From assembly GCA_019775845.1 (NCBI GenBank), contig JADQAV010000015.1, positions 1,443,061 to 1,507,060 of the forward strand: DNA of 64,000 nucleotides, in the 5' to 3' direction. Positions 17,193 to 64,000 of the stretch are shown piece after piece. Source of the stretch: Myrmaecium sp. VS I D KN 1 (taxonomy: Eukaryota > Ascomycota > Dothideomycetes > Valsariales > Valsariaceae). Under the pieces are notes generated by a model. That model searched no databases. It was not told the origin of the DNA and saw only the letters and a program-made list of their open reading frames with translations. The position numbers and the translations under genes were made by a program. Every line of letters begins with the position of its first letter. The first letter of the stretch is position 1.

Positions 17193-18524
17193 CTACCGCT
17201 GCCCCCGCCGGAACTCCTTCCCCTCCCTCAGCAGCTGCTTGCGAAACCTACGGTCATCAGCGGACCCGCGCGTGCTGCTGTTGTTCGTCCTCTCGAAGCG
17301 GCAAGGCCAGCCGTTTTTGATGCAGCTGGAGCAGCGGCTGGGGGAGGATGTGGACGGCTTCTCGCACTTCCGCTTTAGCGTGCGGCATTCGTCGCATGCG
17401 CGAGTGCGCCGGCTAGGGGTGGAGGAAGCAGGAGACTTGGTGTTGGTCTTGGTAGGCGTGGATGAGGGTGCGTGCAGGATGAGTCGAAGACGCTTGGGAG
17501 GTGGTGGGGATGTATCGGTGGAGGCCGAATGGCCGTGTGAAGCAGCGTGAAGCTGATCAACGCTGTCATCGTCGGAACGAGGGCGCTTGCTGCGCTTCGA
17601 AGCGTTCGGGGCAATGCCACTGTTGTCTATAATATGTTTGGGAGCTTGCGCGAGGCTAAGAAGGACCGAAGCCGCTTCTTCTCTGCTTAGTGAAGGTGTC
17701 CAAGTCTTTTTCGCAGGTGGCGAAGCGGTATTTTGGTGACCTTTGTCACGGCCGGGCAAACAACAAGGCCAGCCGTTGCGGACGCAGCTAAGGCATCGCT
17801 TCTCGGTGGCATCGCTGGAAGACGCAGGAGCCTCTTCACACTTGCATTTGAGCGAGCGACATTTGTCGCACGCTCGCCTGCAACGGTTGGAGGCCGCTTG
17901 ATTCACAGCGGCCTGGACAGCGGCTTTCTGTTCCGAGCCGCTGGGCTCAGCGGGCCGAGGACCCAGGATTAGTCGGAGGCGTTTCCGAGGCGGCGCAGCT
18001 GTATCGGAGGAGGAGAACTGGGAACCTCCTCCGACCGGCGACTCACTAGTATTGTGGTCAACCGACGGCGCAGTTGTATCGGAGGAGGAGAATTGGGAAC
18101 CTCCTCCGACCGGAAACTCACAAGTGTTGTGGTCATCCGAGTGTGAACGCTTCCCTGGTCTAGTGGTCGACCGGAGGGCTGGCGTGGTATGGGGGCTGTG
18201 ACGAAGTCTGGAGCCGCTTGCGAGTTCGAGGAGGACCTGCGCTGCCTCTTCGCGGGTCGGACGTTGCGCCGGTGGCGGTGGAGGAGCCATCGAAGCGGAC
18301 TGGGTGCCGCTGGTATTACCCATGTTGGTGTTATGCTTTTCGTTCCAGTCGAATGTTGCAAAGCCGCTATCCAGCAGTGCATCAATAGACGGCAGTGCAG
18401 ACCGGCTCACTGTACCGTCATGTGAATGGTAGAATGGCATGCCCGGACGATTGATTTCGGGACGAGGAACGCGATGCTTGCGAGTCACCGTAACTTTAGG
18501 TGCTGGCGAAGAAGCGACCGACAT
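17193..18524 (-). CDS. Protein with two tandem zinc clusters, 443 aa
   Basis: ATG 18524 chosen; the longer open frame has no ATG further up. The protein is an internal duplication. Each half has REEAA-x-VLL-x-LA (residues 91-101 and 281-291), then P-x-KRLRLIL (179-187 and 343-350), then a cluster of six Cys ending N-G-W-P-C. Cluster 1: Cys 219, 222, 229, 244, 247, 254; cluster 2: Cys 377, 380, 387, 398, 401, 408. Loops between the third and fourth Cys are 14 and 10 residues, far longer than the usual 5-9. A 25-residue repeat (HNT...GGGSQFSSSDT) lies at 132-181. No C-terminal regulatory domain like that of its neighbours. Probably nuclear and DNA-binding by family; role unknown. Confidence 0.8.
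   Translation of the reverse strand: MSVASSPAPKVTVTRKHRVPRPEINRPGMPFYHSHDGTVSRSALPSIDALLDSGFATFDWNEKHNTNMGNTSGTQSASMAPPPPPAQRPTREEAAQVLLELASGSRLRHSPHTTPALRSTTRPGKRSHSDDHNTCEFPVGGGSQFSSSDTTAPSVDHNTSESPVGGGSQFSSSDTAAPPRKRLRLILGPRPAEPSGSEQKAAVQAAVNQAASNRCRRACDKCRSLKCKCEEAPASSSDATEKRCLSCVRNGWPCCLPGRDKGHQNTASPPAKKTWTPSLSREEAASVLLSLAQAPKHIIDNSGIAPNASKRSKRPRSDDDSVDQLHAASHGHSASTDTSPPPPKRLRLILHAPSSTPTKTNTKSPASSTPSRRTRACDECRTLKRKCEKPSTSSPSRCSSCIKNGWPCRFERTNNSSTRGSADDRRFRKQLLREGKEFRRGQR
17992..18141 (-). repeat. 75-bp in-frame tandem duplication
   Basis: Two copies offset by 75 bases (GGCGCAG starts at 17992 and 18067), each containing GTATCGGAGGAGGAGA and CCTCCTCCGACCGG, which are themselves self-complementary. 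It encodes a 25-residue repeat in the double zinc-cluster protein. Few differences between copies suggest a recent event. Confidence 0.9.
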
Positions 18525-19388
18525 CTTCGTATTTGTGCTGATCTTTATTTCGGCGGCTGTAGAAGCGAACGAGGCAAGGCAAGCGAGGGTGGGAAGGCGG
18601 GGTCGATGTAGGATGGATGAGGTATATACCGATCGTAGGTAATCCGAGCAAAGACGGTAGTGAGGTGCGGTGCAGAGTGCGAAGCTGTTTCGGATTGTTT
18701 TGGTTGAAGGGTTGAAGCGTGAGAGTCGAAGAAGAGGAACGGCACGTCGGCGTGTTTTGCTAAGGCGGCAATGATCCAAGGCAACCGGAAGTGTTACTGT
18801 GACAGGAATTGATGCTGCCGGACTCCACTGCCACCTCCCGCCTTCTTATAGTGACCTTCACAGCCTCGCATAACCAGAAGTACGTGACAACGTCTTTGGC
18901 GTCTATACAATACTCTGCATGCATTGTTTCGGTTGGTCCGGGGAAATGGACATGAATGTATTGTATTGTATATACTAAGGAAAACGGCTTCGAGATTTTG
19001 ACGAGCCCGGCTCGAACAATGTCGGTCACCCGTCTCAACTTAAGAAATCCATATTATTGGTCCGAAGGGTCCTTCATTGGCCCAGGTCCTGCTCATGAGA
19101 GACTAGTTGCTTTGCCTGCTGGAGGCGTCGATACCATTTTCAACACTTTGTGCAGCTGATATCAGTTCGGCATGTCGGTAGGGCAAAACGTGCGAGCTAT
19201 TGTCGGGGCAGGTCATATAATTAAAAGTATACGCATAGTCAAGTATTACGGTGGAAAGACCTCGGAAAAGGCGAATAATAGATTGTTGTTAGGAGACAAT
19301 GCCGTTCGTGCTCTGCCGTCCAAGAAAGTCAAACATTCAAGCTTCAACTCGATGGAATGAACCGTACCGGATCATTTCTGCGGCCTCT
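18525..19388. other. Intergenic, no gene seen
   Basis: Promoter side of the 17193 gene and 3' flank of the 19389 gene; nothing further recognised. Confidence 0.45.
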
Positions 19389-21080
19389 TCATTCCATTGC
19401 CCTCCTCTTCCTCCACCGCTCATACCCATGATCCACTCCCAACTTCGAAACCGGCCTCTCCATCGCCGCCGCCACCCATTTGTCCCGCACTCCATGCCAG
19501 GAGTCTGGTAAGTCCCGCACCTCAAAGCGCAGGAACTCCACCCTAGCCTCCTTCAAAAAGCTCTCCACCTCATTCTGAAAATCCCTCTTCTGGATGCCGA
19601 GCAGGTGTTGCGGCTCCAATCCGAATTCAGGACCGATCGCGAACTCCAGCGTTAGGCTGCTCAGCGTCCCCTGGAACCCGAGCCGGTTCAAACTGCCGAT
19701 GGGTTCGAGAAAGCTGAATTCCTTACGGCGGCGCGGCATGGAGCAGGATGAGGGTGCGTCTGTCATAATGACATCTTCCATATCGCTGTCCTTGTCGTCT
19801 TCGAAGGGTACTTCGACATGAACAATGACGTTGGTGAATAGCCGGCAGATGTGCGCGGGCGGCATGTCTACGTTACGACAGAGGACGGGCTCGCCGGGGT
19901 TGTGGAAGAAGCAGCGGCTCACCCGGTATGTGATAACGAGGGTCAGCTTGGATAGGATGGTGAGCACTTGCTGGATGAATTGCTGCTGCGCCGGGCAGAG
20001 CGAGGTCAGCGGCGACGCGGTGGTGGTCAGGCTCCGGTGTGTGGTAATGAGGCGGGTGCTGCCGCAGTGATGCAGGTCGATGGGTGGGTACCACGTTTCT
20101 GTGGAGCGAAAGCTGGGGGTGTACATTTGCCCGATCTCGTTGAAGAGGGTGGCTAGTTGGGCGGTGGTGATGGTTGGGTGGGTTGGGGGGTGGGCATGAT
20201 GGAGAAGTTCCTGTAGGCGTTGGAGTTTGTCGGGAGTCGAGATGGAGGAGGCCAGGATCGAAGAGATGTCGTTGGGATCAAGGTTGTCGTCGGCTTGCTG
20301 GGCGTGGTTTTGCTTTTGTTTTTTGGTGGATCGAGTGGGTTTACTGGTTGATGCTTGCGATCTCGTACGCTTCAGTGACTCCTGTCCGGCAGGCGAAGGG
20401 CGCTTGGTACCTCTAGAACCTTGAGGTTCAGTGGAATCACTCTTTCCGTCCACCTTGCTCGACACCTTGCCCTTGGTCGATCGATCTCTCGGCGCCATGT
20501 TGATGTGCACGTTTATTCGCTTTAATCTGATCTCGCAGCTGTCGGGTTCCTTCCAGGTTTCCGCGTATTGACGAGCGCGTACGTCGTTCGGTCGGTCTGT
20601 ATATATACATCTCCATCCATTGTTCCTGCATGAACGACAGGCATTGTTCCCATCTCCGTTACAACGAGCCTTGAGTAGCCTGCACTGATGACAGGCACGT
20701 TTATGGCGCTTGGGCATCTGGGGAGCGGGAACAGTGATGTCTATTGTGGACATGGGGTGGACATTGTTACGGAGCGAAGGAGTGATAGATATCTGTTCTG
20801 TGCTGGGGCTCGAAGAGGCTCCGGCTTCATTGTTAACTTTTGATCGATCGTTGGTAGACCGGACGCTGAACAGCTGCTGGTCACCAGAGGCACAATGGTC
20901 TGTCTCCTGCTCGGCCTGCTTGCTTTTCTGTTCTTTTCGACCTTGCTCAACCATACCAACGAAGTTACCATGGACCATGTCTTCCGGGTCGATACCAAGC
21001 TGCGTCCAAGCCTGACTGGCATGATACCAGTACATGTCTTGCCAGTGGTGGATACGGGGGTCGACGTTTGGATCAGACAT
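19389..21080 (-). CDS. Zn2Cys6-type protein with shared C-terminal module, 563 aa
   Basis: ATG 21080 is the first in-frame ATG; the open frame above it starts only with GTG. N-terminal residues 1-60 carry an acidic/aromatic segment (HHWQDMYWYHASQAW). The cluster at residues 130-158 is C-x2-C-x6-C-x7-C-x2-C-x6-C, with the same unusual seven-residue loop as the 12951 protein. After a basic Ser/Thr/Lys linker, residues about 330-555 match the C-terminal module of 12951: TITTAQLATLF-x-x-IG, then VLCRNVDMPPAHICRLF, then LGFQGTLSSLTLEF and a closing W-V-A-A. The two are clear paralogs although only 4 kb apart. Likely a nuclear DNA-binding protein; no target can be inferred. Confidence 0.85.
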   Translation of the reverse strand: MSDPNVDPRIHHWQDMYWYHASQAWTQLGIDPEDMVHGNFVGMVEQGRKEQKSKQAEQETDHCASGDQQLFSVRSTNDRSKVNNEAGASSSPSTEQISITPSLRNNVHPMSTIDITVPAPQMPKRHKRACHQCRLLKARCNGDGNNACRSCRNNGWRCIYTDRPNDVRARQYAETWKEPDSCEIRLKRINVHINMAPRDRSTKGKVSSKVDGKSDSTEPQGSRGTKRPSPAGQESLKRTRSQASTSKPTRSTKKQKQNHAQQADDNLDPNDISSILASSISTPDKLQRLQELLHHAHPPTHPTITTAQLATLFNEIGQMYTPSFRSTETWYPPIDLHHCGSTRLITTHRSLTTTASPLTSLCPAQQQFIQQVLTILSKLTLVITYRVSRCFFHNPGEPVLCRNVDMPPAHICRLFTNVIVHVEVPFEDDKDSDMEDVIMTDAPSSCSMPRRRKEFSFLEPIGSLNRLGFQGTLSSLTLEFAIGPEFGLEPQHLLGIQKRDFQNEVESFLKEARVEFLRFEVRDLPDSWHGVRDKWVAAAMERPVSKLGVDHGYERWRKRRAME

Positions 21081-22887
21081 AGTGAGGCCTCGAGATGTCG
21101 ATCGAACTGGAGGATTCCGATGGATGCGTTTCTGGTAGGAGAACGCTGGGTTCAGAGGTATTGGAGTCGGGAGGTCGGCGGCGCTTTCAAGACGGAAAAT
21201 ATGAATATTCGTTGTTTTGCTTCTCTTGCACAGAGTCTGAAGACGCGTGCAGAAGCGCACTAGCAGCGATAGTATTGCCTGTTTCGTATCCGCAACAACG
21301 GAGTCCACGGAACTCTCCCCCGGTCTTCACTGCCAGCCTTGGCGCATTCTGGCCAGGTCGCCGGGATCTCTGAAGACCTAATAGGGCCAGTATGGGAAGA
21401 TGTGTTTAATATATAACCCATCTCGATGGGCTGAATGGAAAACGCGCGTTTGTGGTGCTCCAATCCCATTCACTCTGCAAAGGTAATGATTGCTACGCGT
21501 GAGCTGCTGCGCCTGGATTCAAGCGGTAGAAGTAGGCCTCGCTTCGCCTGGTTTGACAACCGGCAATTAGCTTTTCTCATCCATTGTTGAGTCCAACCAG
21601 ACGCTCACCATCTTTCAGCCGTTTGGTCAGCTCCCAACGTTGAAGGTATCGAGCTGACCTAACGGTGATCGACATTCAGGCCCCGATGCCGGTGCGACTC
21701 GCAGAAACGTTGTGAGCAAGCTTCAGTTACTCCCATGCTGGCCGCCCTCTTGCCTTGTTCTTCGACACCACATGTGATGGTCGCTGCCATCTTAGATCGG
21801 ACCGATCTTTCTGTCATGGATCCGACCGCATCCTGCACGGATAGTATAGCTGGAATGTTCGAGATGGTTGGCCTCCGTTCGTGCCATGAGCAGCGACAAG
21901 CCATGAGCCGTAGACCGTCCTTCTCGCTTGAAGCTGGCTGCAGGACACTGCGAAGATCGCATTTCGTCCCGGCCTTTGGATGCGTTTCCTGTCGCTTTGT
22001 ACCCATGAAAACAGATCTTCTCGGCAGGTTCGGACGACTTCCGAGAGCTACAGTTGCGTGGAGGTATCGATGTACGCGTGGCGGGTAGTGAGTGTTGAGT
22101 TACTGCGTAGGCGCGGGACGTCTGTAAAGGCTCCGTGGGGAAGAAGTGATGCAGCGGGATCAAGAATCGAGCGCATGCGCAGGAGCTGTAGGTGCTTTAG
22201 GCTCGTTCGGTCCCCAGCCAGGAACGAAGGGTGCGGCACTGACATCGATGACCGGAAGTGATGGGTAGAAGAGACACACCTCTCATAAGCAGCGAAAGAA
22301 GGAGCGTGAGCTCATATTAGTACTTTCAAATACGCGAAGGCATTCCAGTGTTTGTGTTCGTGCCACGCGCTTACGTGCACCACTGACTGGCTGAAATGAT
22401 GGGGAGACGTGTATGGTGGCAAGGTGTTGGTGCTTGCCAGGACATGGATGCCACGCCTTTGACCTAGAGAGACATGGAATGGAGACAAGACTTCTTTCCA
22501 TTTTGAAAATGGCACTTCCACTTTTCTGGGATGATGTGGCAGGTCAAGACAGCAGCTGCAAGAGAGAATTCGCAAACACGAGAAAATGACAGCAAGGCTA
22601 CGAAAATTGAACAGCTGAGGAACGGGACAAATGAGAGTGCGAAGCCGTGGGACGTTCTCCGATTGTTCAGTTTAGATTCTTTGGAAAATATGCAGTATTT
22701 ATCTGACGTGACGCACGAAAGCAACGGTTCTGACAATGCTAGGAAATGCGATTAGGGATAGAAATGAAATGTTTTACCAGGGGTATATCCAGCACCGAAC
22801 CATTAGGAAGAAAGGCCGAAAGAACCATAGAAATAGAAAGCGAACGAAACGCCGCGGGATCCCACCCGCAGTACAGGATGTCTGTAG
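21081..22887. other. Intergenic, no gene seen
   Basis: Several open frames on both strands, none with ATG plus family features. No structured element recognised. Confidence 0.4.
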
Positions 22888-28414: not shown

Positions 28415-29665
28415 CTAAAGCATCTCGGCGAAGATCTCTGCCTCTAGCCATCGCTTCATCCACCGCCCAACCTTATCCTCTCCAGACAGCCATGCGACGA
28501 TCTCTCGCTCTTCTTCGTCAGTCCGGAACGCCAGCTTCATTTCCTTCTCGCGCACACCAGTGAAGCCAGCCCTCTCCATCTCCCGCCATGGCCGCAAGCA
28601 ATGTTCATTCCACTTGCACTCTGGCACCCATCCTCTCATCATCCATTCGCAAGCTCTCTTGATTGCGGCAACATTCGCTGCAGATTCCAGCTCGCTCGAC
28701 TCGTACCAACGAGCGTCCGGGCAGCTGCCGGGTAACCATGTCCGCAGCAGGACCTTCTCGAAAATAGCGGCGATGTGCGCTGGTGGGATCCGACATACCC
28801 TCCTCACCTGGAAGAGGCCCGAGTGGCTGTCCATCTCCGGAACCTCTCGGTTCTGGATCTCGAATATCTTGCGCTTGAGCCATGCAACGAACGACCGCTT
28901 CAACGACGCCCACTCAGGCGGGGGCAACAGCCATATGTGAGGGTCAAAGAGAGGGTGTGTGGTGATATTCTCCGGCGACGTGCCAGTTGAGGACCACCAG
29001 GGGCGACGGGCGTTGGGACCTTGGGCGAACGGGATCGTGACTAACGGCACGGATGAGAGGTTGCCCACGGTTTCGAGGATGTCAGTGAGGTCGTCGATCG
29101 TGATGGTCGATTGGGGATGTGCTTCCCGGAGTGCTTTCATGATGGCCTTGGTCTTGGGCTTGCGCTGGGTGGTAGCAAACCATGATCGTCGCTCGTTCTG
29201 ATCCGGTCGAGGCGCGGGTATAGAGTCGGATTTGTCTGTCGCTTTGCGCTTCAGGTCTTGGTCCTTGGAATGAGGTTTTACAGGTGTGACTGTGCTTTCC
29301 ACCACGGGAATCAATTCTCCAGCTGGGGCCGCTGTATCGTTTGACGAATGCTGATCATGAACGACGGAAAGTGCAGTCGTCTTGACAGGACCCCCGGCCA
29401 ATGACACGTCATATCGGGGCAGCGATATAGGACTAGGACTACTCCGTTCATCGGTCGTAGAAGACGACGAACTTTCCTGCTCGCTAAGAGGAACGCTGCT
29501 GGCAGCCCTCAGCATGTCGCGTGTGACTTGCGAATTGCTCGTCGACTTGTTATCGCAAGCCTTCTCCTTTCTGAGGCAGGAACTGCAGGGGCTGCTTCCA
29601 TCGCACTTGATCCGGTTGAGCCTGCAGAAGTCGCATGCCCTTCTGGACCGGACCAAGGTGATCAT
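28415..29665 (-). CDS. Zn2Cys6-type protein with shared C-terminal module, 416 aa
   Basis: ATG 29665. The cluster is at the very N terminus and canonical: Cys 11, 14, 21, 27, 30, 37 (C-x2-C-x6-C-x5-C-x2-C-x6-C). Residues 40-150 are a Ser/Pro/Lys linker. Residues about 180-410 resemble the C-terminal module of the 12951 and 19389 proteins: STITIDDLTDILETVG, later RRVCRIPPAHIAAIFEKVLL, and an AGFTGV-x6-LAF block before a Trp-rich end. It is the most diverged of the three. All three lie on the same strand within 17 kb. Likely a nuclear DNA-binding protein; targets unknown. Confidence 0.85.
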   Translation of the reverse strand: MITLVRSRRACDFCRLNRIKCDGSSPCSSCLRKEKACDNKSTSNSQVTRDMLRAASSVPLSEQESSSSSTTDERSSPSPISLPRYDVSLAGGPVKTTALSVVHDQHSSNDTAAPAGELIPVVESTVTPVKPHSKDQDLKRKATDKSDSIPAPRPDQNERRSWFATTQRKPKTKAIMKALREAHPQSTITIDDLTDILETVGNLSSVPLVTIPFAQGPNARRPWWSSTGTSPENITTHPLFDPHIWLLPPPEWASLKRSFVAWLKRKIFEIQNREVPEMDSHSGLFQVRRVCRIPPAHIAAIFEKVLLRTWLPGSCPDARWYESSELESAANVAAIKRACEWMMRGWVPECKWNEHCLRPWREMERAGFTGVREKEMKLAFRTDEEEREIVAWLSGEDKVGRWMKRWLEAEIFAEML

Positions 29666-36090: not shown

Positions 36091-37100
36091 TCAAAAATCC
36101 GCCAAATCAAACCCATGCATACCAGCATCAAAATTCCACCCCGAAAGATCCGTAAAGTCCACACCCAAGAAAGCCTCAAGATCCATATCCATCCCATCCC
36201 CCAAAGGCATGGAGGCACTCCCACCACCACTATACGCCGTCTCCGGCGTCGGCGGCATGCCCAAGCAACCACTTCCCACACCCTCAGCGCTCGCATCCTT
36301 CACCACCGCCGGCGTCCAGTCCACCATCACACCGTCCGACTGCTTCCCCTGCTCCACCGCAGCCGATTCACAGCTCGCCCCAGCCCCAGCCCCAGCCTCA
36401 CCCTCCCAATCCAACCCAAGCGCCCTCCCAAAAAACCCCAGCACCCTCTCCAACACCTCCCCCCTCCTCTCCTCCCCCCCACCAACCGCCCACCCAGCAG
36501 CCAAAAACCAGTACTCAACCCACCCACACCCCAACCGCCCAATCGCTTGCTCCAGAAGCGTCAACCCCTCCCGCACCAGCTCCGCACAGCCCCCCTCCAA
36601 CGCCACCTCCACCACCACCTCCCTCCGGCTCCAGCAGCCGTGCAGCTGGGCGTTGCGTCGCAGCGGCACGTGCGCCGTGTACAGACTCTGCACCACCGCC
36701 ACCGCGCCCCCGGCCCGCAGCACGTCCGCCCGCCCGCGCGCCCACCCCACCAGGCCCCGCGCCGCGGCCAGCGTGCGGTGCGCGTCTAGGATCGAGGAGG
36801 CCGCGGCCAGCACGCGGAGGGCGAGGGTGGCGAACTGGGGGTGCAAGGGGGCCCCGCTGGTGCCGCTGCAACCCCCTCCGCTGGGCCCTCCGGTGGCGGC
36901 CATGGCGTTGGGACCGAGGTAGGAGGGGCCCCCGCTCCCGCCTGGACGAAGCAGGGGAAGGTGGAGGAGGATGTGGAATTGGAGGAGTTGGAGGCGGAGG
37001 AGGGTGGTGGTGGTGAGGCGGGCGGAGGTTTGCCAGTCCGGGCCGAGGAGGGTGTGGAGGAGGTGTTGGTCCGGGGGGAGGGAGGGCGTGGAGGCGGGAG

Positions 37101-37142
<42 letters not shown>

Positions 37143-39063
37143 CTGAGAGGGGGGTTGGGTTAGCTGGCTGTTGCTGCGGCGGTGGTGACTCCGGATCGTC
37201 GTCAGCATCGACGGCAGTCCAGTCCGGCAGCTCTGCCAGCGCTTCATCGACGCGACGGGCGTACGCTTCGATCTCATGGCCCGCGAGCCCATCGAACGCG
37301 TTGTTCAACCGAGTGGCCATCTCCGTCCGCAGCGCCAGGCTCTTCGCGCTCCAAACGAGGTAGCTCGTCGGCGTCCATTCGCGCTCGTTGCGGCCTCCAT
37401 CAGTACTATCCTTCTCCTCCTCCTCCAACTCATGATCCCACACATTCGCCGGCGCACCCGCATCCCATCCCACGCCCGCCAGAGCGCCGGGTAAGCCGCG
37501 TTCAATGCCCGCCTGAGTATCCACCTCCGCCACAACCCCCCAAAACCGTCGACGGACTTCCGCATTGCGTCTGCGGGTGGTACATCCAGGCTTGCCCTGT
37601 GACGCAGCCCCCTTCCCAGCGGCGATGAGCACCGGATCCCGATGCATACCCACGGCGACGGCGTAACGAAGCAGCGCGCCGGCGCCCGCCCAGTGCTGCT
37701 TGCTCTTGACGTAGTTGACTTCCTTGGCGAGCTGGAGCAGGATGTGCACGCCGAAGAGGGCGGCGGTGAGGTGCTTGAAGCTTTGCTGGTGCAGCCAACG
37801 TTCGACGGTCAGGATCCAGCGGGTGGCTGCTTCGCGTTCGGCGGTGGTGCGGAGTAAGGTTAGCGGTTGCTGTTGCTGTTGCTGCTGCTGGTCACGGCCA
37901 GACGAGGACGCCATGGGGACGTGAACCCGGCCTATCGCGCAAACGAGCAAAAGCGTCGCTAGGAAGACCTCCGGCACCGGACACTCCTCCTCCCTCTCCT
38001 CCCTCGCCTCCAACCAGCCCCACAACCTCCCATACGTCTCCCCAAACTCGCCCAGAACAAGGACCCTCCAACACACCTCCCAATTCCGCAAATACACCGC
38101 CACCAAGCAATCACACACCCTTTTCTCCGGGGGTAGTAAATCCACCAACTCCCTCCACCCCTGTCCCTTCCCCTCCTTCCCCGTCTTCTTCTGGCTATCC
38201 TTCCCCTTCCACCCCCTCCTCACCCCCTCAAACGCCGCCTGCAACGTCACTCCCGTGCCCCCTCCCCCAACGCCCCGGCTCACCCGCGACGCAATCGCAC
38301 TCTGCATGAACGCGCGTAAGCCAGGGACCTGCGCAACCCCGCCCCCGATCGCGTTCGTGGGGCCGTAGAATTGCGTGCGGAAGCCGGAGCCGCGGAAGAG
38401 CATGGCGGCGGAGGCGGTGGTGGAGGTGCCGGGGTTGGTCGAGCTGGAGGTGCTCGTGGTGGCGATGAGGCGCGGTTGCTGGCTCCAGGGGAGCGGGAAG
38501 GGTGTGCTGGTCGTGTTGCTAGGTAGAGGGGCGGTGGGCGGTGGGCCGCTGCTGCTGTTGTTGTTGCTGCGCTGCAGGAGCAGGGCTTCCAGCTGCGCCA
38601 GTCGCTGAGCGAGGCTTGCATCGCTGCCTGCGGTCGGCAGCAACGGCGGTGGTGGTGCGCAAGAGCCCTCCGCTTCACCCAAACCAGTACCCGTAGGCAC
38701 CAGCATCTCCCGCGCATACCCAGCCTCGCTGCCCGTCCCGTCGTCGCCGAGACGCGCGTCGTAGATGCAGCCGTCCGCCTGTCCGGACCGCCGACAGCGG
38801 GTGCAGGCCGGAAAGGCGCGGTCGCAGCCGAGCTTGCGACGCCGGCAGGGGAGGCAGGAGAGCACTTTGCGGCGGCGTTTGCGCTCGGGGGTGGTGTTGG
38901 TGTTGGAATGTGGATGTGGGTGTGAGTGGGAGTCGGTGGGGTGGGTGGGGTGAGAGTTGGTGGGGTGAGAGTGGGAGGTGAAGTGGGAGTGAGGCTCATG
39001 CCGTGGTGGCTGATCATGTGGCGGTGACGGGGACCCCGGGCGTTTTCGGGGGATGGCGGACAT
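36091..39063 (-). CDS. Zn2Cys6 transcription factor with fungal_trans domain, 990 aa
   Basis: Start taken at ATG 39063; a further in-frame ATG at 39189 would put a TATA-like element inside the gene. A His/Pro-rich head is followed by a basic patch and the zinc cluster (Cys 70, 73, 80, 87, 90, 99), which binds CGG-type DNA sites in this family. Asn and Gln runs follow. The middle homology region of fungal transcription factors is clear: LTVERWLHQQSFKHLTAALF, AVAVGMHRDP, then RRRFWGVVAEVDTQAG and RGLP. A CAG-encoded run of about 13 Gln (37102-37143) and a shorter one (37869-37892) sit near it, and the C terminus is acidic with aromatic residues (DFTDLSGWNFDAG), as in activation domains. One exon. 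Role unknown; no enzyme cluster next to it. Confidence 0.9.
37102..37143 (-). repeat. CAG repeat coding polyglutamine
   Basis: About 13 CTG/CAG triplets; in the minus-strand gene they encode Gln. Likely length-variable. Confidence 0.9.
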
Positions 39064-39164
39064 CGTGGGCCAAGTTGATCCGGGGTGGTCCGATGACGCG
39101 GTCAGGCACCCAGGCAATAACGGTGCGTGCTTGCTTCTGTGCTTCGGCCGAGCGGGGGATGTCC

Positions 39165-39176
39165 AATATATAAAAT
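39165..39176. promoter_or_regulatory. TATA-like element upstream of the Zn2Cys6 factor
   Basis: AATATATAAAAT on the plus strand, readable as a TATA box in either direction. It is about 105 bases above ATG 39063 and is the best promoter candidate there; it could equally drive rightward transcription. Confidence 0.4.
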
Positions 39177-39331
39177 CCCCGACCTGCATCCTTAACTCCG
39201 GGAGCGTCCGGCTCGGCCGAGAGGACTCGGTGTCCGAGGCCCTCCGCCCGGAGTTGGCTGTTCAACTCCGAGTCCGAGGGATGCGCGGATCTGATTGGTC
39301 GAGAGGGAAATTGTTTCGAGACCGTGAGGCA

Positions 39332-40607: not shown

Positions 40608-42257
40608 ATGCGCCTCTCAGCCGTGCTGCCAACGGCCCTCATCGCCCTCGCGGCGGAGGCCTCGCCAGCCCTCGCAGCAGCAGCAGCAGCAGCAACAGCA
40701 GCGCCAGCAACGACGGCAAACGCGACCTACTGGCCCTGGCAAACGTACAAGTCCAGCTGGGCGCGGCCGCCCTCGCTGAACATCACCAAAACCGGCCCGA
40801 CCGCGCCGGGACGCCTCTTCTTCACGCAGAACGGCGACTACGCCCACGCGCCCGCCTCCTTCATCATGGACGACGACAACGAGCTGGTGTGGCAGAGCGC
40901 GCGGGGCGACATGAGCGACTTCAAGGCCCAGACCCTCGACGGCCGTCCCGTGCTCACCTTCTTCAACGGCATCACCTTGCCTGAGCCGTGGGGCTGGGGG
41001 TACGGCATCATCCAGGTCCTCGACGACGCGTACGAGAGCATCTACAACGTCTCCATCACCGCCGAGCAGGAGGATCTGACGGTGGGCGCGGGCATGGATC
41101 CCTCCGAACTCACCTCCTACATCGACATGCACGAGTCCAAGATCACACCCGACGGCACCATCCTCGTCACCCTCATCAACGTCACGCGGTGGGATCTCAG
41201 CGACGTCGGCGGGCCCGCCGACGGTTGGGTCGCCGACTCGCTCTTCTACGAGATCGACGTCAAAACCAACGCCGTGCTCTTCCGCTGGAGCGCGCTCGCC
41301 CACGCCGACCAGATCCCCCTCGCCGCCATGACGCAGTTCTACCCCGTCGGCGACCTCGGCCGCAATCAGTCCTACCCCTACGGCTACTTCCACATCAACT
41401 CCGTCGACAAGTTCGCCGACGGCTCCTACCTCATCTCCTCCCGCTTCTACTGCTCCCTCTTCAAGATCGCCCGCGACGGCACCGTCGAGTGGACGCTCCA
41501 GGGCCGCGACGGCGGCGACTTCACCCTCCTCGACGCCCCGGACCTCTCCTTCTGCTACCAACACCACGCCCGCATCCACGCCGAGGACATCTCCTCCTCC
41601 TCCTCCCTCTCCTCCTCCTCCACCAACTCCACCACCAACGACACCCTCACCATCATCAGCCTCTTCAACAACGACAACGACGCCGAACACCAGGGCGTCA
41701 ACCAAACCACCGGGCTCCTCCTCGCCCTCAACCCCCACCGAAAAACCGCCTCCCTCCTCTCCCCCCCCAGCCCCCTTTACGACCCCACCGACCCCCTCTA
41801 CGCCGCCTCCCAAGGCGCCCTGCAGCTCCTCCCCAGCTCAGGCCACGCCCTCATGGCCTACGGCGCCGTCCCCACCCTCAAGGAATTCGACCCCCAAGGC
41901 CGCTGCATCATGACCGTGCGCTTCGGCCTGGTGGAGGGGAACGTGCAATCGTACCGGGGGTTTCGCCTTCCGTGGGTGGGGCGCCCGCGCGCGCCGCCGG
42001 ATGTCTTTGCGTGCCGTGACGCGGGGGCGACCAGGGTTTATATGAGTTGGATGGGGGCGACGGAGCATAGGGCTTGGACGGTGTTTGGGGCGGAGAGGGC
42101 GAAGGGGACGATGAGACGGGTGGAGAGGGTGGAGAGGAGGGGGTTTGAGACGGAGGTCCTGGTGAGGGAGAGCTTGGGGGTGGTGCAGGTTGAGGCGAGT
42201 GGGGTGGGGATTGAGAGGAGGAGGTCGGAGGTTGTGGAGGTGCAATCGTCTTGCTGA
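40608..42257 (+). CDS. Secreted arylsulfotransferase (ASST) family protein, 549 aa
   Basis: One exon from ATG 40608. An N-terminal signal peptide (hydrophobic, ending in an Ala run) and many N-x-S/T sites point to secretion. The body fits the fungal ASST family (Arylsulfotran_2), a six-bladed propeller: ITPDGTILVTLINVT, DMHESKI, YFHINSVDKFADGSYLISSR, DGTVEWTLQGRDGGDF, CYQHHARI and ISLFNNDND are recognisable blade motifs, with conserved His in H-E, H-I-N and H-H-A-R. In bacteria the family moves sulfate between phenols, but for fungal members the activity is not shown, so I name only the family. A Ser/Thr/Asn loop (about 325-345) is a local insertion. Confidence 0.88.
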   Translation: MRLSAVLPTALIALAAEASPALAAAAAAATAAPATTANATYWPWQTYKSSWARPPSLNITKTGPTAPGRLFFTQNGDYAHAPASFIMDDDNELVWQSARGDMSDFKAQTLDGRPVLTFFNGITLPEPWGWGYGIIQVLDDAYESIYNVSITAEQEDLTVGAGMDPSELTSYIDMHESKITPDGTILVTLINVTRWDLSDVGGPADGWVADSLFYEIDVKTNAVLFRWSALAHADQIPLAAMTQFYPVGDLGRNQSYPYGYFHINSVDKFADGSYLISSRFYCSLFKIARDGTVEWTLQGRDGGDFTLLDAPDLSFCYQHHARIHAEDISSSSSLSSSSTNSTTNDTLTIISLFNNDNDAEHQGVNQTTGLLLALNPHRKTASLLSPPSPLYDPTDPLYAASQGALQLLPSSGHALMAYGAVPTLKEFDPQGRCIMTVRFGLVEGNVQSYRGFRLPWVGRPRAPPDVFACRDAGATRVYMSWMGATEHRAWTVFGAERAKGTMRRVERVERRGFETEVLVRESLGVVQVEASGVGIERRRSEVVEVQSSC

Positions 42258-49175: not shown

Positions 49176-50358
49176 CTAGCTCGCCGCCGCCGCCGCCGCC
49201 GCAGCGGCAACAAAACAATCCAACGCACTGCCCTGAGCCGCCGCACTCGGATTCCCAAACGGACCCTGCCAGCGGGGGCCCATCTCATCCGTCCCCACCT
49301 CCCGATCCGCATTCCAAATCGCTGCCGCATTCGTCGCCAAAAACGCGCGGTACGCCGCCCGCGGCGCCACGGCCTGGAGGTACTTCAGATTGCGCACGAA
49401 CACCCCCTTGAACGCCGCGCTGACGATGTCCTCGCCCGAATTCTCCGTCAGCACCCCGCCGGCGTCCGTCAGGTTGGCGAGGGTGGCGTTGGCGCGGGCC
49501 GCCGCGGCGGTGAGGTAGGTTGCTGTGTCGCCGGTGGCGCGGGCGAGCTCGACGAGCGCCCCGATCAGCACGCCTTGGTTGTAGGTGAAGGGCGTGCCGC
49601 CGTTGTTGGCGCAGGTGGTCGGGTCCAGCCCGTCGTTTACGAGGTTCTCTTCGTTGTAGAACCCCGCGCTCTCGAACCAGGCGTGTTCGCGCAGGGCCCA
49701 GTCGAGGTAGCTGGCGCGCCGGGTGGCGTCGCTGACTCGGTTGGCGAGGTGCGCGGCGACGGAGAGGAAGAGCTCGTTGGCGATGGCGGCGACTTGCGTG
49801 TGCGCTTTGTCCCACCAGATCCCCCCGCCGCACGGCGTCGTCCAGCCGTTCGTCATGTCGGCGAAGAGCGTTTCGGCGGCGGAGAGGAAGGTGGCGTTGC
49901 CGTAGAGGTCGTAGGCGGCGATCCAGGCGAGCGCCCACCATCCCTGTTGAGGGTGTGTGAGCATCGGCGTCGTATCAAGAGAAACGGAGGTGAGATGGAA
50001 AGGGAAAACCTACCTCATCATCGTAAAACCCACTCAGCCAGGTGCCCGGCTCGCCTCCAGAGCCCCGACCGATGGCGTTCGTCCAGGTATGGTCTACGTA
50101 GAAGATGCTGGTCGATTCCAGGCTAGGTTCGACGTCGGCGAGCTCGATGACGGCGGTGAGGATGTTGGCGCTCTGCCACCAGAGGTTCTCCCACAGCCCG
50201 GTCGAACTGTTCCACCATTGGGTGGTGAGGACGTTGGCCGCAGTGTTGGCGTAGCTGACATAGGTGGCGGAGGAGGAGGAATTCGTCGTTTGAGCGGAGG
50301 TGACGGAGAAGAGGGAGGTAAGGGCGGTGACGGCGGGGAGCACGTGGTGGGCGTGCAT
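49176..50358 (-). CDS. Secreted GH76 alpha-1,6-mannanase, 370 aa
   Basis: Exons 50358-50014 and 49943-49176; intron 50013-49944 (GTAGGT...CAACAG, 70 nt). The signal peptide is residues 1-23 (ending SVTSAQ). GH76 hallmarks: NTAANVLTTQWWNSSTGLWENLWWQSAN near the N terminus, then the catalytic Asp pair in GFYDDEGWWALAWIAAYDL (Asp113-Asp114; the intron falls right after Glu115), CGGGIWWDKAHTQVAAIANELF, and FTYNQGVLIGALVELARATGD. Known members hydrolyse alpha-1,6-mannan chains of fungal cell walls or glycoproteins; plasma-membrane DFG5/DCW1 relatives have a GPI anchor signal, which is absent here (the C terminus is an Ala run), so a soluble secreted enzyme is likely. Confidence 0.9.
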
Positions 50359-57697: not shown

Positions 57698-59869
57698 AGT
57701 GGTAGGGTGGAATTGATCGCTATCACGGTGATGGTAACGCGAAAACAACGAGAAGATAGCACGGATATATATACCCACCCCCATCACAAACATTCTCCGC
57801 TTCAGCATAATGCGAAACCATGCCACTCTTATTTATCCCGATCGCAGAGTGGACCAGGAGTGTGGCCGCGGCGCCCAGATTGGGTGGGATGCTGCGATGG
57901 TTCGCTGTCTTGTGGGGATCGTTTCGGGTCTCGTTCACCCCTGTCGGCTCCAAGGGATCGTCGTGGATGGATGATTCTCCGCCAACGAGGGCTCGGCCCG
58001 GTGGCTGGCGGGCCGCTTGTCCTAAATATCGTCGTCCGGCGGTAAAACAAGGGTGTATGGAATGCGATGTTATGGTGGGCGTTACTAGCTACCTTACTGA
58101 GCATGAGGAGCGAAGGTGGAGGTAGGAAAGGGGTTAAACATGTAAATACTACGTACTGTGTAAATATAAACATATATATACCTATATCGAAGGAGACAGA
58201 TATCAACCAGCCTGTTATGGCAACGTATCTAATACGATCAAGGGTTAGAAATCTCTGCTGGTGCCTTCTGGGTCTTCTTGTGCTGATGCTGGTGCTCTAG
58301 AGCGATCGAATATACCTAAGAGCCTACCCGTTTCACTAGGCGCAACGTCTCTCGACCAACTCACAGATAGAATGCTGGCTAAAAGAAATGCTAAACACAT
58401 GCTTGAACAGGTAACAGTTCGGTTTGGTATCCTCTCAACTGTCGTGTATTCGCAAGCGGACATCCTTATCCGCACTATCGACGTCTAGCATGTGTGGATC
58501 GCATTTCTCCGACCACCCCTGCGCATCCCCGCCTTCATTCATTTTCTCGCTGGATTAGCTGTATATATCCACTGTAAACAAGCTTACCGCATCACTGGTT
58601 AGTGTAAGTATAATACATGGAAGTGTAGCAGATCTCTCCTGTCTTCGATCGCCATCACAGGTAGTAAGCCTATCTAGCTTACGCTTCGACGTCAGTCTCA
58701 GACTCTCGCTTCTTACCAGCAGATGCGATTCATGCATTCATCCTTCTTACGTTTCTCTCCGAAGTCGATATGCTGCAGCAGAAAGAGAAGTGTCTTAGCC
58801 GGTTCGCGGCGACCGCTGGATAATAACGTGGGTTTCAACACCACGGCTCACGAAGCCTACAAGTCTATTTCCAGCCCCCTATACAGAAGATCCCGTAGAA
58901 CACGGAACTATATAATTATCGTTAAAGTGTACGTTAAGCACTGGCAGTAATGCGATTCGCTCCCGGACGGCACCAGCTCCGTCTTTATTAACACTACCCT
59001 GGGAAAGGCTGGCCTCTCTCCCTTCGGCGGCTTCTACGTCCGCAATAGGATCGTTAACGCCTTCATCACTTCGCCCTCTGCCAACCGCGCTGCTCTCCCT
59101 GCTATCTCCCCTCAGGGTAGTCGCGTGCTTACTTCCAGCGGTGAAGCGAGCACTATCATCCCACTTGGCGCGGTGGTCCTCTGAATTGTCTGGAGCGTGA
59201 CGTACGTCTGGGTGAGAGCGTGGTGGCACGTCTGTGTATGAATGTAGGGCAGGGGGAGTTCGCTATCAGAGGTCACTGGGAGGGTCGTATAATCAGCTGG
59301 ACGGGCGCATGGCGACTGTACCGCGTGTCGCTATCTGACGGGTGGTAACGTCTTGAATGTGGGATTTAACCCTAACCCTAGCTAAGTTTACAGCACCCAA
59401 CATGCTCTTCGACTGTCCGTCCGGGATTGTTCACCGTTGCCCTGCCTTGGGATTCACGTGTTGACGGCTGCGACAGCACCACTAACACCAGCACTCGGTG
59501 AGTCCACATCTTTCTATTTTGCGAGCCTAGCCTTCGACCGCTCGTCCGTTAGAGATATAGCTGACAGGGCAGCCAGCGAGTGAACGTTTAGATTGGCAGT
59601 TATGGTGAGTTTAATAGGTTAGACAAATTCCGATAAGGTAGAGATGGCGGTTTGAGGAGGACATTGAATTCTGGGAATAGGTTTCATCTTCATATGAATG
59701 GCTATCACGCCCTTGCCGGGCTACTACTCTGAGATTATTACTTCAAGGACTTCTAGCACGATGCAGTAGATGTAGATTAACTAACTCTAGTGGCTACCTA
59801 CTTCCAAACGACAGATGCTAGGAGCTTGCTCGCTATCTCACGCGAACGACCCAGTTTCCCGATAATACT
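57698..59869. other. Subtelomeric region without accepted gene
   Basis: No ORF with features. It includes a short internal telomere-like motif (59366-59380) and becomes AT-richer near 58140-58200 and 58555-58620. Confidence 0.45.
59366..59380 (-). repeat. Internal telomere-like motif, inverted
   Basis: TTAACCCTAACCCTA: two CCCTAA units, in the opposite orientation to the terminal repeats 4.6 kb away. Confidence 0.6.
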
Positions 59870-62800
59870 CTACATGCCGTCGAAGACGAGGAGGCTCTGA
59901 ACCGGGAACTTACCAAGCCCGTGTCGGAGTAATGTCTCCCGACCACGGTGAATTGGGAACTCCGCTATAACCATCGTTGTGGCATTCTCAACCTGGGCCT
60001 CATCTAAAAGCCGCAGAATTGCGCACATAGTCTCCCCCGTCGCAAGCACGTCGTCGACCACGACCACCGACGCGGCCGGGGGAAGCACATCCTTCTCCAT
60101 CGTGATACGTTTGAGCTCTGAACAGCGGACTTGTGCAGATGAGATGTATGATTGTGACTTTATCACGGATAAGGTGGGAGGAGGAAGCTTGCCAGCCTCT
60201 CGAATCAACACCAACGGAACCTTGACACACGACGCCAGCGCGGAGGCGAAGATGAAGCCGCCCGCCTCGCAGCACACGATAGCGTCGACTTTGTTCCAGT
60301 CTCCGGCAAAGTAGGTGCGCAGCAGCGACGTGCACAGAGCGAGCCCCCCGGGCTGCTGGGCGATGCCGAGCACATGGCGAAACTCGATCCCCGAGCGTGG
60401 AAAGTCGGCTACCGAGCGGACCATCAGGGCCAGTTGCTGCAAGTTTTCGTGGCAGAAGGGCAGCAGATGCGACCGTGCGAACTGCTTGCTGGCCTCCTCG
60501 TCGCTGGCGTCGTTCCTGAATACGAAGGTGGGACGATAGTGAGCCGGTACGGGTCTGTCGCTGTCGCTCTCACGGTCCTCTATCTGCTCTCCAGGAATGC
60601 CATCGCTCCCACGTCCACGGCGCACTGACCGTATTAGACTGTTGGCTTCGACGTGGACTTCTATCACCCTGTAGGCCGGCACCAGAGGAGACAACGCAGT
60701 GACCGGCGCGTCGTCTCTCATCCCGGTGATCAGCAACACGTCGACATCCGCGTTGGCATAGACCACGTCCAAGAAGTGCTGCCGTGGAAGCTTGCAGTTT
60801 TGTCGAACCTGCTCCCGGTAAAAGGCCGTCAATGCTGGCCGGTGTTTTTCTTTGTAGCCACGATCTTGGAGCAGCCGATCCAGATCCGCACCGGTAGCTG
60901 CAGCGTACTCTCGCTTAGTAGCATCGCTGATGCTGACCGCGCGAGCCGTCGGATTTCCGCTCGCGTCGTGCGTGAACACCGCGGCCCAGATGCTCGCACA
61001 ATAGTCCTTCCCAGCGCCGTTTTTGCCGGTGACGAGGACGATCATCTTAGGCGGCATAAGCGGTTCTGGGAGCGGACATGCGTAGGGCAGCACGCGGTGC
61101 GGGTCTGCTCGTTGTTTGAGACGAGCAAGGCGTGAGCGGTTCGGTCCGAAAGCCATGGTCGCCAGGCTCAGGTCTCTTGAATCCGGCCCAAGATCAGCAC
61201 CGTAGACACCGCTGGCGATAGGCAACAGATCCTTCACAACATCGTACACCCACTGTGTAGCAACCTTTGCGAGCGTGGTGTTGTCCTGGTTGCGAGGCCA
61301 TACGGCAGTGATCACGCAAGCAAAATCCCAATCCCGACATCCAAACGCCGTGGCGTCGGGAGCAACGTCACGCACAGCTGCTCCGCCCTGTAGCAGGTGA
61401 AGGTAGCACAGCGGAGACGGACGACGCTGTATAGCCTTGATCAACCGGGTGACGACAGCTTCTTCTCCAATCTGGTTAAGGAAGATACACCGCTTGAACG
61501 ACGAAGTTTTCCCACCGCCGTGGCCTCCGTGCATCCTGGCCATGTATATCTCCGTCTCAAACATACCGATCCCATCCACGGTCTTGCATTCGTGTTCCGG
61601 CCCCCATGTCATCGGACATTGCACTGTCGCCGTGGGCGGTCTCTCCACAAAAGATTCGTATACAGTCACGCCAAGCTGCAATTGGCCGGCATCCCAGTGT
61701 AGATACGCATCGGCGGAACAGTGTCGCTGTAATTCTCGGGAGAACATATCAAACTGCAGGATGACAAGCTGCGCATGATTAGAATCGGTGAGGGGTAAAA
61801 CCCAGTTGCGCACCACGTAGTTTGGAGCCCGGTAGGCCTGAAAGGTGATGCTTTTGACGATGCCGAAGTTAGTACCGGCGCCCTTGAGCGCCCAGAGAAG
61901 ATCAGCTTCGTTCACTGGACGAACAGCGTTGGCTGGCTGGTGTTTGACCGGTACGCGGCCAAGGCAAAGGACCTGGCTAGAGTCGACGCTGACGATCACG
62001 GCACCGACGACGGCGTCACAGGCCAGCCCATGCTGTCTAGCCAAATGTCCAATGCCGCCCTGGAGCCAGAGTCCTGCGCCAACGCTGGGGCGAGCACCTA
62101 AGGGAACGGTCAAGCCCACTGCCTGCGTCTGGCGCACGATGTCCCCTGCCTTGCAGCCGGCCCCGACGACGACCAATGGGCCAGAAGGAGTCCCGCATTG
62201 GCTTTCTGCTTCTGCCGCCGTCAGGAAATGAACTTGGTTGAATGCCGCCATGTCGACGGCGACCGTGTGGGGCCTTAAACAATGCCCGCTGTGGCCACCG
62301 CCGACGACAGTTAAACGGACACGATGCTTTAAGGCCCATCGAACACAGTGCTGGACCTGCGCAATCTCCGTCGGTCTAACGACCGCTGCCGGTTGGTGCG
62401 CACGCGCCTCCCGGTTCTTCACCGTTAAGCTATCTCTCCCTATTATTATCTGTGACGGAAGCTCCGATGTCGCGGTAGCGTGCTTAGTGAATGCTACCAT
62501 AACTTCAGGGGCGCTGAATAAGAGATCGTTTGAAGGTTTCTCCGTACGACGGCCTAGGATCCGACACAACTTGCGCCAGTTAAGTTTGACGGCGTTGTCT
62601 CCGTCCGGATCCAGGGTGAACCCTGCGACAAATGCAGCAAAGCAGTCCAGCGCCCCATCGTTGTCGGGAACGCTCACATCTCCCTCGTGAAAAAGGGCGC
62701 TTTGATGGGCACATAAAGTGTCGAGATCAAGAGTCCCTTCACGATGGAAAACCACTACTATCCCGGGGGATGCGGGCGAACCTTGCTCTGCGAGCATTTC

Positions 62801-63301
62801 CATGGCTCGTTTAATATACTTATGCTGTGGCTTCATGCCGTACAAGCTATGGCAGAACAAGATAACATCGTAGGTTATTTTGTTATCTGATGTATTATCC
62901 GTTAAGCCGAATGGCATTTGGAGAATGCGAGATGGCGTTTGCAGGGAAGGGAATACGGTGGAGACTGACGTATCTAATTTCGCAGCAAACAACCCGGTAG
63001 GCTCGAACGCGGTGTATTTGGCAACCTTCTGCCTCATCGGCGCTGGCAGATGTGCTAGTACGCTATGTGGACCTGGTCCAATCTCAAGCACGGAGATGTA
63101 CAAGCGCGATGCAAAGAGAGAAACTAATAACCGAGAGAGCTGAGGGATGATGAAGTCTCGGTAATTCAACCATCCACGGCCCTCTACAAACGTCTTAAAG
63201 CCCTTTTCGTATTCAGCATCGGATAGAGGTTGTCTTGATGGCGAACCATCGTCCGACGCCGCCTCCCTGAGGGCTTTCTTCAAGGAGTTTAACGTGTCCA
63301 T
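59870..63301 (-). CDS. Four-module fusion: methyltransferase-like, FAD oxidase, PMVK-like kinase, APRT-like, 1143 aa
   Basis: One exon; ATG 63301 chosen because a TATA box lies about 80 bases upstream. Module 1 (about 45-275): Rossmann methyltransferase type, motif I VLEIGPGPHS (71-80), YDVILFCHSLYGM. Module 2 (about 300-745): PCMH/BBE FAD-linked oxidase, TVVGGGHSG (His337 may bind FAD), GARPSVGAG (consensus Cys replaced by Arg403, so no second covalent link), MAFGPNRSRLARLKQRADP. Module 3 (about 753-900): P-loop TGKNGAGKD (758-766), with ISDATKREYAAATGADLDRLL, RGYKEKHR and LLITGMRDD, like animal-type phosphomevalonate kinase. Module 4 (about 945-1143): type I phosphoribosyltransferase of the adenine kind, ADFPRSGIEFR, CEAGGFIFASALA, IREAGKLP and PRPP loop VVVVDDVLATGET (1080-1091). 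No signal peptide. I know no characterised enzyme with this order. Substrate unknown; a nucleobase-linked pathway is possible from module 4. Confidence 0.85.
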   Translation of the reverse strand: MDTLNSLKKALREAASDDGSPSRQPLSDAEYEKGFKTFVEGRGWLNYRDFIIPQLSRLLVSLFASRLYISVLEIGPGPHSVLAHLPAPMRQKVAKYTAFEPTGLFAAKLDTSVSTVFPSLQTPSRILQMPFGLTDNTSDNKITYDVILFCHSLYGMKPQHKYIKRAMEMLAEQGSPASPGIVVVFHREGTLDLDTLCAHQSALFHEGDVSVPDNDGALDCFAAFVAGFTLDPDGDNAVKLNWRKLCRILGRRTEKPSNDLLFSAPEVMVAFTKHATATSELPSQIIIGRDSLTVKNREARAHQPAAVVRPTEIAQVQHCVRWALKHRVRLTVVGGGHSGHCLRPHTVAVDMAAFNQVHFLTAAEAESQCGTPSGPLVVVGAGCKAGDIVRQTQAVGLTVPLGARPSVGAGLWLQGGIGHLARQHGLACDAVVGAVIVSVDSSQVLCLGRVPVKHQPANAVRPVNEADLLWALKGAGTNFGIVKSITFQAYRAPNYVVRNWVLPLTDSNHAQLVILQFDMFSRELQRHCSADAYLHWDAGQLQLGVTVYESFVERPPTATVQCPMTWGPEHECKTVDGIGMFETEIYMARMHGGHGGGKTSSFKRCIFLNQIGEEAVVTRLIKAIQRRPSPLCYLHLLQGGAAVRDVAPDATAFGCRDWDFACVITAVWPRNQDNTTLAKVATQWVYDVVKDLLPIASGVYGADLGPDSRDLSLATMAFGPNRSRLARLKQRADPHRVLPYACPLPEPLMPPKMIVLVTGKNGAGKDYCASIWAAVFTHDASGNPTARAVSISDATKREYAAATGADLDRLLQDRGYKEKHRPALTAFYREQVRQNCKLPRQHFLDVVYANADVDVLLITGMRDDAPVTALSPLVPAYRVIEVHVEANSLIRSVRRGRGSDGIPGEQIEDRESDSDRPVPAHYRPTFVFRNDASDEEASKQFARSHLLPFCHENLQQLALMVRSVADFPRSGIEFRHVLGIAQQPGGLALCTSLLRTYFAGDWNKVDAIVCCEAGGFIFASALASCVKVPLVLIREAGKLPPPTLSVIKSQSYISSAQVRCSELKRITMEKDVLPPAASVVVVDDVLATGETMCAILRLLDEAQVENATTMVIAEFPIHRGRETLLRHGLGKFPVQSLLVFDGM

Positions 63302-63971
63302 TTCGAAGTTGGAATCGATATCAGGATGGTGAAGAGTGTAGGACCTGGGCTGCTGCAGAAAGATGAAGGTTACGGAGGCACTTATATACCTATTTCTTTC
63401 TACGTTTGCTGTTTGCGCTGCGTTGTCTGCTACCTCATAGATTACCAACGCCCCTGTAACGTGTTCGTGTTCCATCACAAGCCCTGCCGCGGCGGCTTAC
63501 CGTAGCAATCACTCCCTTCTCTCCTGACCCTTCATATACATATAACATAGATTGCTGGGTGTTTCGGGATAAGAGCTAGGGAGGCTGAACACTTATTTTA
63601 CTAAAGGTAAACCTTCGCAACGATTAAAACGGGTGAGAGGAAAGTCCGTATCTAGTAGAAAGTTCCCCGAGAGGTAAAGTAGCGTACCGGGACGGGGAGT
63701 ACCTTACAAACTAGTATAAATTTAATAAAAGAGAAAAAAAATAACAGAATTACTATTTACATATATAGGTTTCATAAAAAATAGGATCTTATTAGTAACT
63801 AATTACTACGCGTAGAATTATAGTTATAAATTAACCGGATATATATAAACTATTAGGTTAACTATATATTCGACGAGTAACTAAAACCCTATATAGAATT
63901 ATGGTTGTATATTATAGTACTATTAGTAGACTGTTTAATTCACCGCCTAACTACTAATATAACTAAGACTC
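63302..63971. other. Subtelomeric AT-rich spacer
   Basis: From 63302 to about 63500 the promoter of the terminal gene; from about 63720 on strongly AT-rich with TA steps and no ORF, like the island at 24530. No transposon or helicase remnant seen. Confidence 0.6.
63381..63388 (-). promoter_or_regulatory. TATA box of the terminal fusion gene
   Basis: TATATAAG on the minus strand, about 80 bases above ATG 63301. It argues against starting at the in-frame ATG 63475, which lies upstream of it. Confidence 0.6.
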
Positions 63972-64000
63972 TTAGGGTTAGGGTTAGGGTTAGGGTTAGG
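63972..64000 (+). repeat. Telomere repeats TTAGGG
   Basis: Nearly five TTAGGG units running to the window edge, G-rich strand outward, so this is a right chromosome end. Confidence 0.97.

Follow-up and report, generated by a model that had tools for sequence, protein, structure and literature searches.

Cns3 of the fungal cordycepin/pentostatin cluster carries a nucleoside kinase (NK) and HisG in one polypeptide (PMC11188397). Here we analysed a stretch of 64,000 nucleotides from the fungus Myrmaecium sp. VS I D KN 1 (contig JADQAV010000015.1, positions 1,443,061 to 1,507,060; hereafter the window), in which the last recognised gene ahead of a terminal TTAGGG array is predicted to encode a fusion of four enzyme-like modules. 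Like Cns3, the predicted product combines kinase and phosphoribosyltransferase domains in one fungal polypeptide; by contrast, the domains of Cns3, judged by their names, belong to other families (nucleoside kinase, HisG), and Cns3 sits in a gene cluster (PMC11188397). The individual modules have described relatives of their own. 6-Hydroxy-D-nicotine oxidase (2bvf) and EncM (4xlo) share the flavin adenine dinucleotide (FAD)-binding half and the flavin-linking His with the FAD oxidase, which, in contrast to these enzymes, is here the second among four fused modules. Animal-type phosphomevalonate kinase (PMK; PF04275, 3ch4) has the P-loop GKxxxGKD and the YKExxR motif in common with the kinase, and adenine phosphoribosyltransferase (APRT; human 1ore and the enzyme of the host itself) is related to the last module over its whole length, including the phosphoribosyl pyrophosphate (PRPP) loop and the GKLP motif. 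Cns3 presumably lacks a methyltransferase and an FAD oxidase.

The features of the locus are:

59870..63301, minus strand: whole open reading frame (ORF), 1143 aa, from the ATG at 63301 to the stop at 59870; introns not needed
62459..63301, minus strand: module 1, class I S-adenosylmethionine (SAM) methyltransferase-like, aa 1-281, with Methyltransf_23 at aa 54-174
61061..62458, minus strand: module 2, PCMH-type FAD oxidase, 6-hydroxy-D-nicotine oxidase/EncM-like, aa 282-747, with His337 in GGGHS
60470..61054, minus strand: module 3, P-loop kinase of Pfam PF04275 in the neighbourhood of PMK and deoxynucleoside monophosphate (dNMP) kinases, aa 750-944
59873..60445, minus strand: module 4, APRT-like phosphoribosyltransferase domain, aa 953-1143, PRPP motif mostly kept
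63381..63388, minus strand: TATATAAG, possible TATA element 80 bp upstream of the ATG, motif match only
63972..64000, plus strand: terminal telomere repeat, TTAGGG x 4.8, contig end

A preliminary description of this DNA had placed the gene at 59870-63301 in a single uninterrupted frame, which is correct; the strand, unstated there, is minus. The frame has zero internal stops, the stretch read contains no N, and base composition depends on codon position in all four modules. The motifs quoted earlier (VLEIGPGPHS, GGGHS, TGKNGAGKD, RGYKEKHR and VVVVDDVLATGET) are all found in the translation. Pfam matches were judged by curated cut-offs, and the modules were also scanned singly, which raised the scores of the first three slightly. 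In the order of the open frame, the methyltransferase is matched by Methyltransf_23 (E 1.1e-6; 28.9 bits in the whole protein, 31.9 bits alone; cut-off 27), the FAD oxidase by FAD_binding_4 (aa 304-440; E 5.6e-16; 58.9 bits, cut-off 26.4), the kinase by P-mevalo_kinase (PF04275; aa 757-871; E 1.3e-20; 73.9 bits in the whole protein, 78.2 bits alone; cut-off 33.8), and the APRT-like domain by Pribosyltran (aa 980-1114; E 5.8e-20; 71.6 bits, cut-off 26.3). Each module thus exceeds its cut-off, including the kinase and phosphoribosyltransferase calls for which a domain-profile check had been proposed, and together with the TTAGGG repeat at the contig end this bears out the claim of four enzyme-like modules in one frame beside a telomere. 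The linkers between modules are short, that between FAD oxidase and kinase very short (approximately aa 740-755). The same frame stays open 5' of 63301 and contains a further ATG at 63475; the ATG at 63301 is favoured because TATATAAG lies 80 bp before it. We regard the gene as real and predict that it encodes one four-module polypeptide and is probably expressed.

Module 1 matches the class I SAM methyltransferase profile and contains, as VLEIGPGPHS, motif I of these enzymes; structure prediction from the single sequence gave no usable model (pLDDT 34.9). For module 2, the earlier call of an FAD oxidase is substantiated by FAD_binding_4 and by the closest solved structures, which are 6-hydroxy-D-nicotine oxidase and EncM. 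The C-terminal BBE model reaches 14.1 bits (cut-off 20.6); the same region nonetheless aligns with FAD-oxidase relatives, and FAD oxidases of archaea and bacteria align with the whole module, sharing 28-29% identity. We compared it with 79 of 80 relatives from GTDB contigs, one having been dropped for strand or length. Of 39 columns with conservation of 95% or more among these prokaryotic proteins, the module keeps 33, that of His337 among them, as compared with 34 to 39 (median row, 39) in the prokaryotic rows, a comparison which is tilted against the module because those rows define the columns. It is more diverged than its prokaryotic relatives but looks intact and competent. The Cys at the second flavin-linking position of berberine-bridge-type enzymes is absent; we take His337 and this position to be the flavin-linking sites.

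For module 3, an animal-type phosphomevalonate kinase had been proposed. Family membership is upheld by PF04275, whose match spans profile positions 1-109 of 114; the more specific assignment is not, as the animal PMK equivalog TIGR01223 scores 28.7 bits, far short of its cut-off of 188.15. When the PDB was searched with phmmer, human PMK was the top match, weakly (E 0.013) and over approximately the first 80 residues. Apart from the two motifs mentioned above, the Lys of the next helix is shared with human PMK, and the residues that we take to be R18 and K19 of the latter are replaced by N and G. A model of the module built on 40 phage sequences has a pLDDT of 66.9 and a weak C-terminal quarter. 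Its PDB matches at ranks 1-5 are adenylate-kinase relatives and 3ch4, nearly equal in E value (9e-4 to 1.5e-3) and with low TM-scores of 0.35-0.43. Among the viral proteins of BFVD, the top match bears the label phosphomevalonate kinase (8.3e-7); it is followed by a coliphage ATP-binding protein (1.4e-6), and several dNMP kinases rank lower. Because the model rests on a phage alignment, its likeness to phage kinases is no independent evidence.

Searches with the sequence itself recovered 22 records of phage dNMP kinases (tblastn, best E 5e-4, 95% coverage) and a match of phrog_139 at 2.3e-7. With regard to phage and bacterial dNMP kinases, a profile of the 40 phage relatives reaches only the N-terminal part of the module with 11.2 bits, where 2000 shuffles gave 5.5 at best, as opposed to 78.2 bits for PF04275, and we dropped the idea of a plain phage-type dNMP kinase. 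A host mevalonate-pathway enzyme was dropped as well, given that the genome has an ERG8-type gene. What can safely be stated from these matches is that the predicted kinase belongs to the PMK/dNMP-kinase neighbourhood. A BLASTP survey of dNMP-kinase relatives lists one of 871 matches as annotated phosphomevalonate kinase (PMC10653934). In some Kuravirus records (CDS 1192-2085) the dNMP-kinase CDS is about 96 aa longer N-terminally than in SGF2 (894 versus 606 bases), which points to either another start or an extra domain.

The adenine-type phosphoribosyltransferase proposed for module 4 holds as a statement of relatedness, with APRT profiles matching at E 8.7e-31. As an assignment of function it is doubtful: the scores remain below the equivalog cut-offs (best NF002636, 106.8 versus 125; TIGR01090, 96.5 versus 185.85), and the loop differs at hallmark residues. 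Six canonical APRTs, the host's own and five picked from 17 matching plasmid-collection records, served as reference. Module 4 keeps 21 of the 35 columns invariant among them, whereas canonical rows left out in turn keep from 35/36 down to 35/44. In the PRPP loop D1083, D1084, A1087, T1088 and G1089 are kept and G1090 is replaced by E (ATGG to ATGE). Lost are the Arg of EARGF (here EAGGF), both Glu and Gly in the LEYG loop, which also has an insertion of about nine residues, the Lys of RKxGK (REAGK) and the Asp of FRD (FRH). We assume these positions to be catalytic or in contact with substrate; a literature search on their role found nothing. A canonical APRT was rejected on the count of retained columns. 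Because of this count and the lost hallmark residues, transfer of phosphoribosyl to adenine by module 4 appears doubtful; binding of PRPP is plausible, and another substrate or a sensing role is possible. The sole PADLOC match, ShosT (E 0.0021), lies over this part.

In the host genome (25.66 Mb, 66 contigs) the fused gene is single-copy, and three other matches cover the APRT or the FAD part alone. A separate APRT is located at C25:49471-49866, two matches represent further FAD oxidases, and an ERG8-type phosphomevalonate kinase lies at C66:1006566-1008075, in three pieces resembling exons (E values from 1.1e-55 to 6.9e-17) whose scores add up to about 324 bits, the cut-off for the whole protein being 377. 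A second PF04275 gene was not found in this genome. Because the host has an APRT and an ERG8-type kinase elsewhere, the single-copy gene looks accessory, in agreement with what had been claimed for it, and its modules would therefore be freed from housekeeping.

Beyond the host genome, the best 80 of 522 confirmed GTDB FAD-oxidase matches were inspected with flanks of up to 3 kb, and the other three modules were present at none of the 80 loci (tblastn, E <= 0.01). None of 396 genomes and none of 398 (794 from two bacterial phyla) gave a PF04275 match above cut-off, nor did a smaller set of 5; one match among the 396 stayed below it (21.4 bits). The methyltransferase matched 0 of 396 genomes. 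Empty answers in such searches prove little when there is no positive control. On these counts a prokaryotic origin of the whole fusion was dropped. Scans of viral contigs with both halves and with query A1, and of genome contigs with A1, revealed no relative, and tblastn of the plasmid collection with the methyltransferase or the kinase alone gave no match. Titles and the beginnings of abstracts contained no description of the four-domain combination, which may be reported in fungal protein databases outside this search; likewise, the architecture may be common in fungi, our searches having covered prokaryotic, viral and host sequences. Two by-products of these searches may be mentioned. A Salinimonas plasmid protein (1832-3952) annotated as a short-chain dehydrogenase/reductase (SDR) oxidoreductase also matches the FAD module and is apparently an SDR-FAD oxidase fusion. 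The plasmid collection includes NZ_LR214986.1, the 986-kb 'plasmid 13' of Mycoplasmopsis cynos, which carries infB and looks like a mislabelled chromosome.

The terminal TTAGGG repeat ends the contig (C5) at its position 1507060, 0.7 kb beyond the start codon. The interval between gene and telomere is AT-rich at 63700-63960 (GC 0.23) and is probably a repeat affected by repeat-induced point mutation (RIP); short pieces of the near-telomere stretches are 79-87% identical to two further contigs of the host, C42 and C10, which is consistent with a chromosome-end repeat. RIP-type indices (TA/AT, then CA+TG over AC+GT) are 1.06 and 0.98 for 57830-59869, 1.45 and 0.78 for 63302-63700, and 0.68 and 1.13 for the ORF, the single modules ranging from 0.52 to 0.75 and from 1.00 (kinase) to 1.16. 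With general thresholds for these indices, the flanks are read as RIP-like and the gene, by TA/AT, is not. The GC content at third codon positions (GC3) is 0.55 in the methyltransferase module and 0.62-0.71 in the other three, lower than in two other ORFs from the window, the only two used as reference (0.77 and 0.89), and GC declines unevenly toward the telomere. The low GC3 could mark the gene as accessory or foreign, or reflect just its telomeric position. A short interstitial telomere-like stretch, TTAACCCTAACCCTAG, lies past the 3' end of the gene at 59366-59381 and is inverted relative to the terminal repeat; the gene thus sits between TTAACCCTAACCCTAG and the chromosome end.

Taking these data together, we propose that the gene, accessory and subtelomeric, encodes a multifunctional tailoring enzyme in specialised metabolism or detoxification, a proposal to which we give an even chance and in which the chemistry is inferred. 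Its target, on the best reading, would be a small molecule that bears a nucleotide or phosphate. The most economical arrangement is one in which the modules pair, methyltransferase and FAD oxidase for tailoring and PRPP-binding domain and monophosphate-type kinase for nucleotide handling. Methylation and oxidation of a small molecule would fall to the N-terminal pair, which would use a covalent flavin and O2 as acceptor, and the C-terminal pair would act on a nucleotide- or phosphate-bearing partner. In the latter, the phosphoribosyltransferase-type domain would bind PRPP and either add ribose-5-phosphate to a base other than adenine or sense PRPP, and the kinase would move phosphate from ATP to a monophosphate in the manner of PMK and dNMP kinases. 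A role in the mevalonate pathway or in ordinary adenine salvage is unlikely. If the proposal is true, we would be dealing with a PF04275 kinase that works apart from the mevalonate pathway, in a host with an ERG8-type gene of its own, and with an APRT-like domain that has moved off adenine salvage. All modules may also form one enzyme line on one molecule, as the preliminary description had suggested. It is tempting to speculate that the gene replaces a small cluster, with a base-like scaffold being methylated and oxidised, ribose-5-phosphate added from PRPP by a re-specialised phosphoribosyltransferase and the resulting nucleotide phosphorylated, all by one polypeptide, to give a nucleotide-type natural product or antimetabolite; we hold this version to be improbable. 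If the modules do cooperate, the order of parts would provide a direct clue to a nucleotide-linked metabolite, and the gene would be a single-gene expression target.

Several observations weigh against a tailoring enzyme. The methyltransferase match barely exceeds its cut-off, and no solved structure is similar to this module by sequence. The CA+TG over AC+GT index of the kinase module lies on the RIP-like side of the threshold. With its hallmark APRT residues lost, module 4 may be non-enzymatic. By Pfam, no companion biosynthetic gene was recognised among the 16 other ORFs of the window, small and intron-split genes having been left unassembled. Finally, a conserved architecture and a function as a single polypeptide are predictions from the sequence of one genome.

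Other explanations may be considered. Two unrelated bifunctional halves, a methyltransferase-FAD tailoring enzyme and a kinase-phosphoribosyltransferase nucleotide enzyme, might have been joined by chance and share a promoter, without a common substrate. The very short FAD-kinase junction and the deviating GC3 of the methyltransferase module would be compatible with such an event; however, the uneven GC drop toward the telomere could alone account for the latter, and neither half turned up on its own in the prokaryotic and viral collections searched. We consider this unlikely, if by no means negligible. It is rather improbable that module 4 is a PRPP-sensing regulatory domain of the PurR type gating kinase or oxidase. 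In line with such a role, the PRPP loop is mostly kept while the Arg of EARGF, the loop Glu, the Lys of RKxGK and the Asp of FRD are gone and so many invariant APRT columns have changed, and a pur operon repressor profile does match the module (6.7e-9). The APRT profiles match far better, however, a shift in base specificity would change some of these positions too, and the ATGG to ATGE replacement falls within the PRPP loop itself. Least probable in our view is a decaying or misassembled subtelomeric chimera devoid of combined function. The adjoining telomere, the RIP-like flanks and the altered residues of module 4 would be expected of such a sequence, but 3.4 kb are free of stops with codon-position-dependent composition in each module, the hallmarks of FAD oxidase and kinase are retained, the stretch read is without N, and the TA/AT index of the ORF is not RIP-like.

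The Pfam scan of the 16 other ORFs of the window identified the following genes over cut-off:

17196-18779, 19392-21308, 28418-29665 and 36091-39189: Zn2Cys6 regulators
40608-42254: arylsulfotransferase-type protein
49179-49964: GH76 glycoside hydrolase

An Rfam scan of 50-64 kb gave no match. The Zn2Cys6 regulators and the TTAGGG telomere repeat are in keeping with a filamentous fungus. With four Zn2Cys6 ORFs inside 22 kb, the segment 17196-39189 is unusually rich in regulators, and a fifth ORF at 12954-15278 has a Zn2Cys6 score just under the cut-off.

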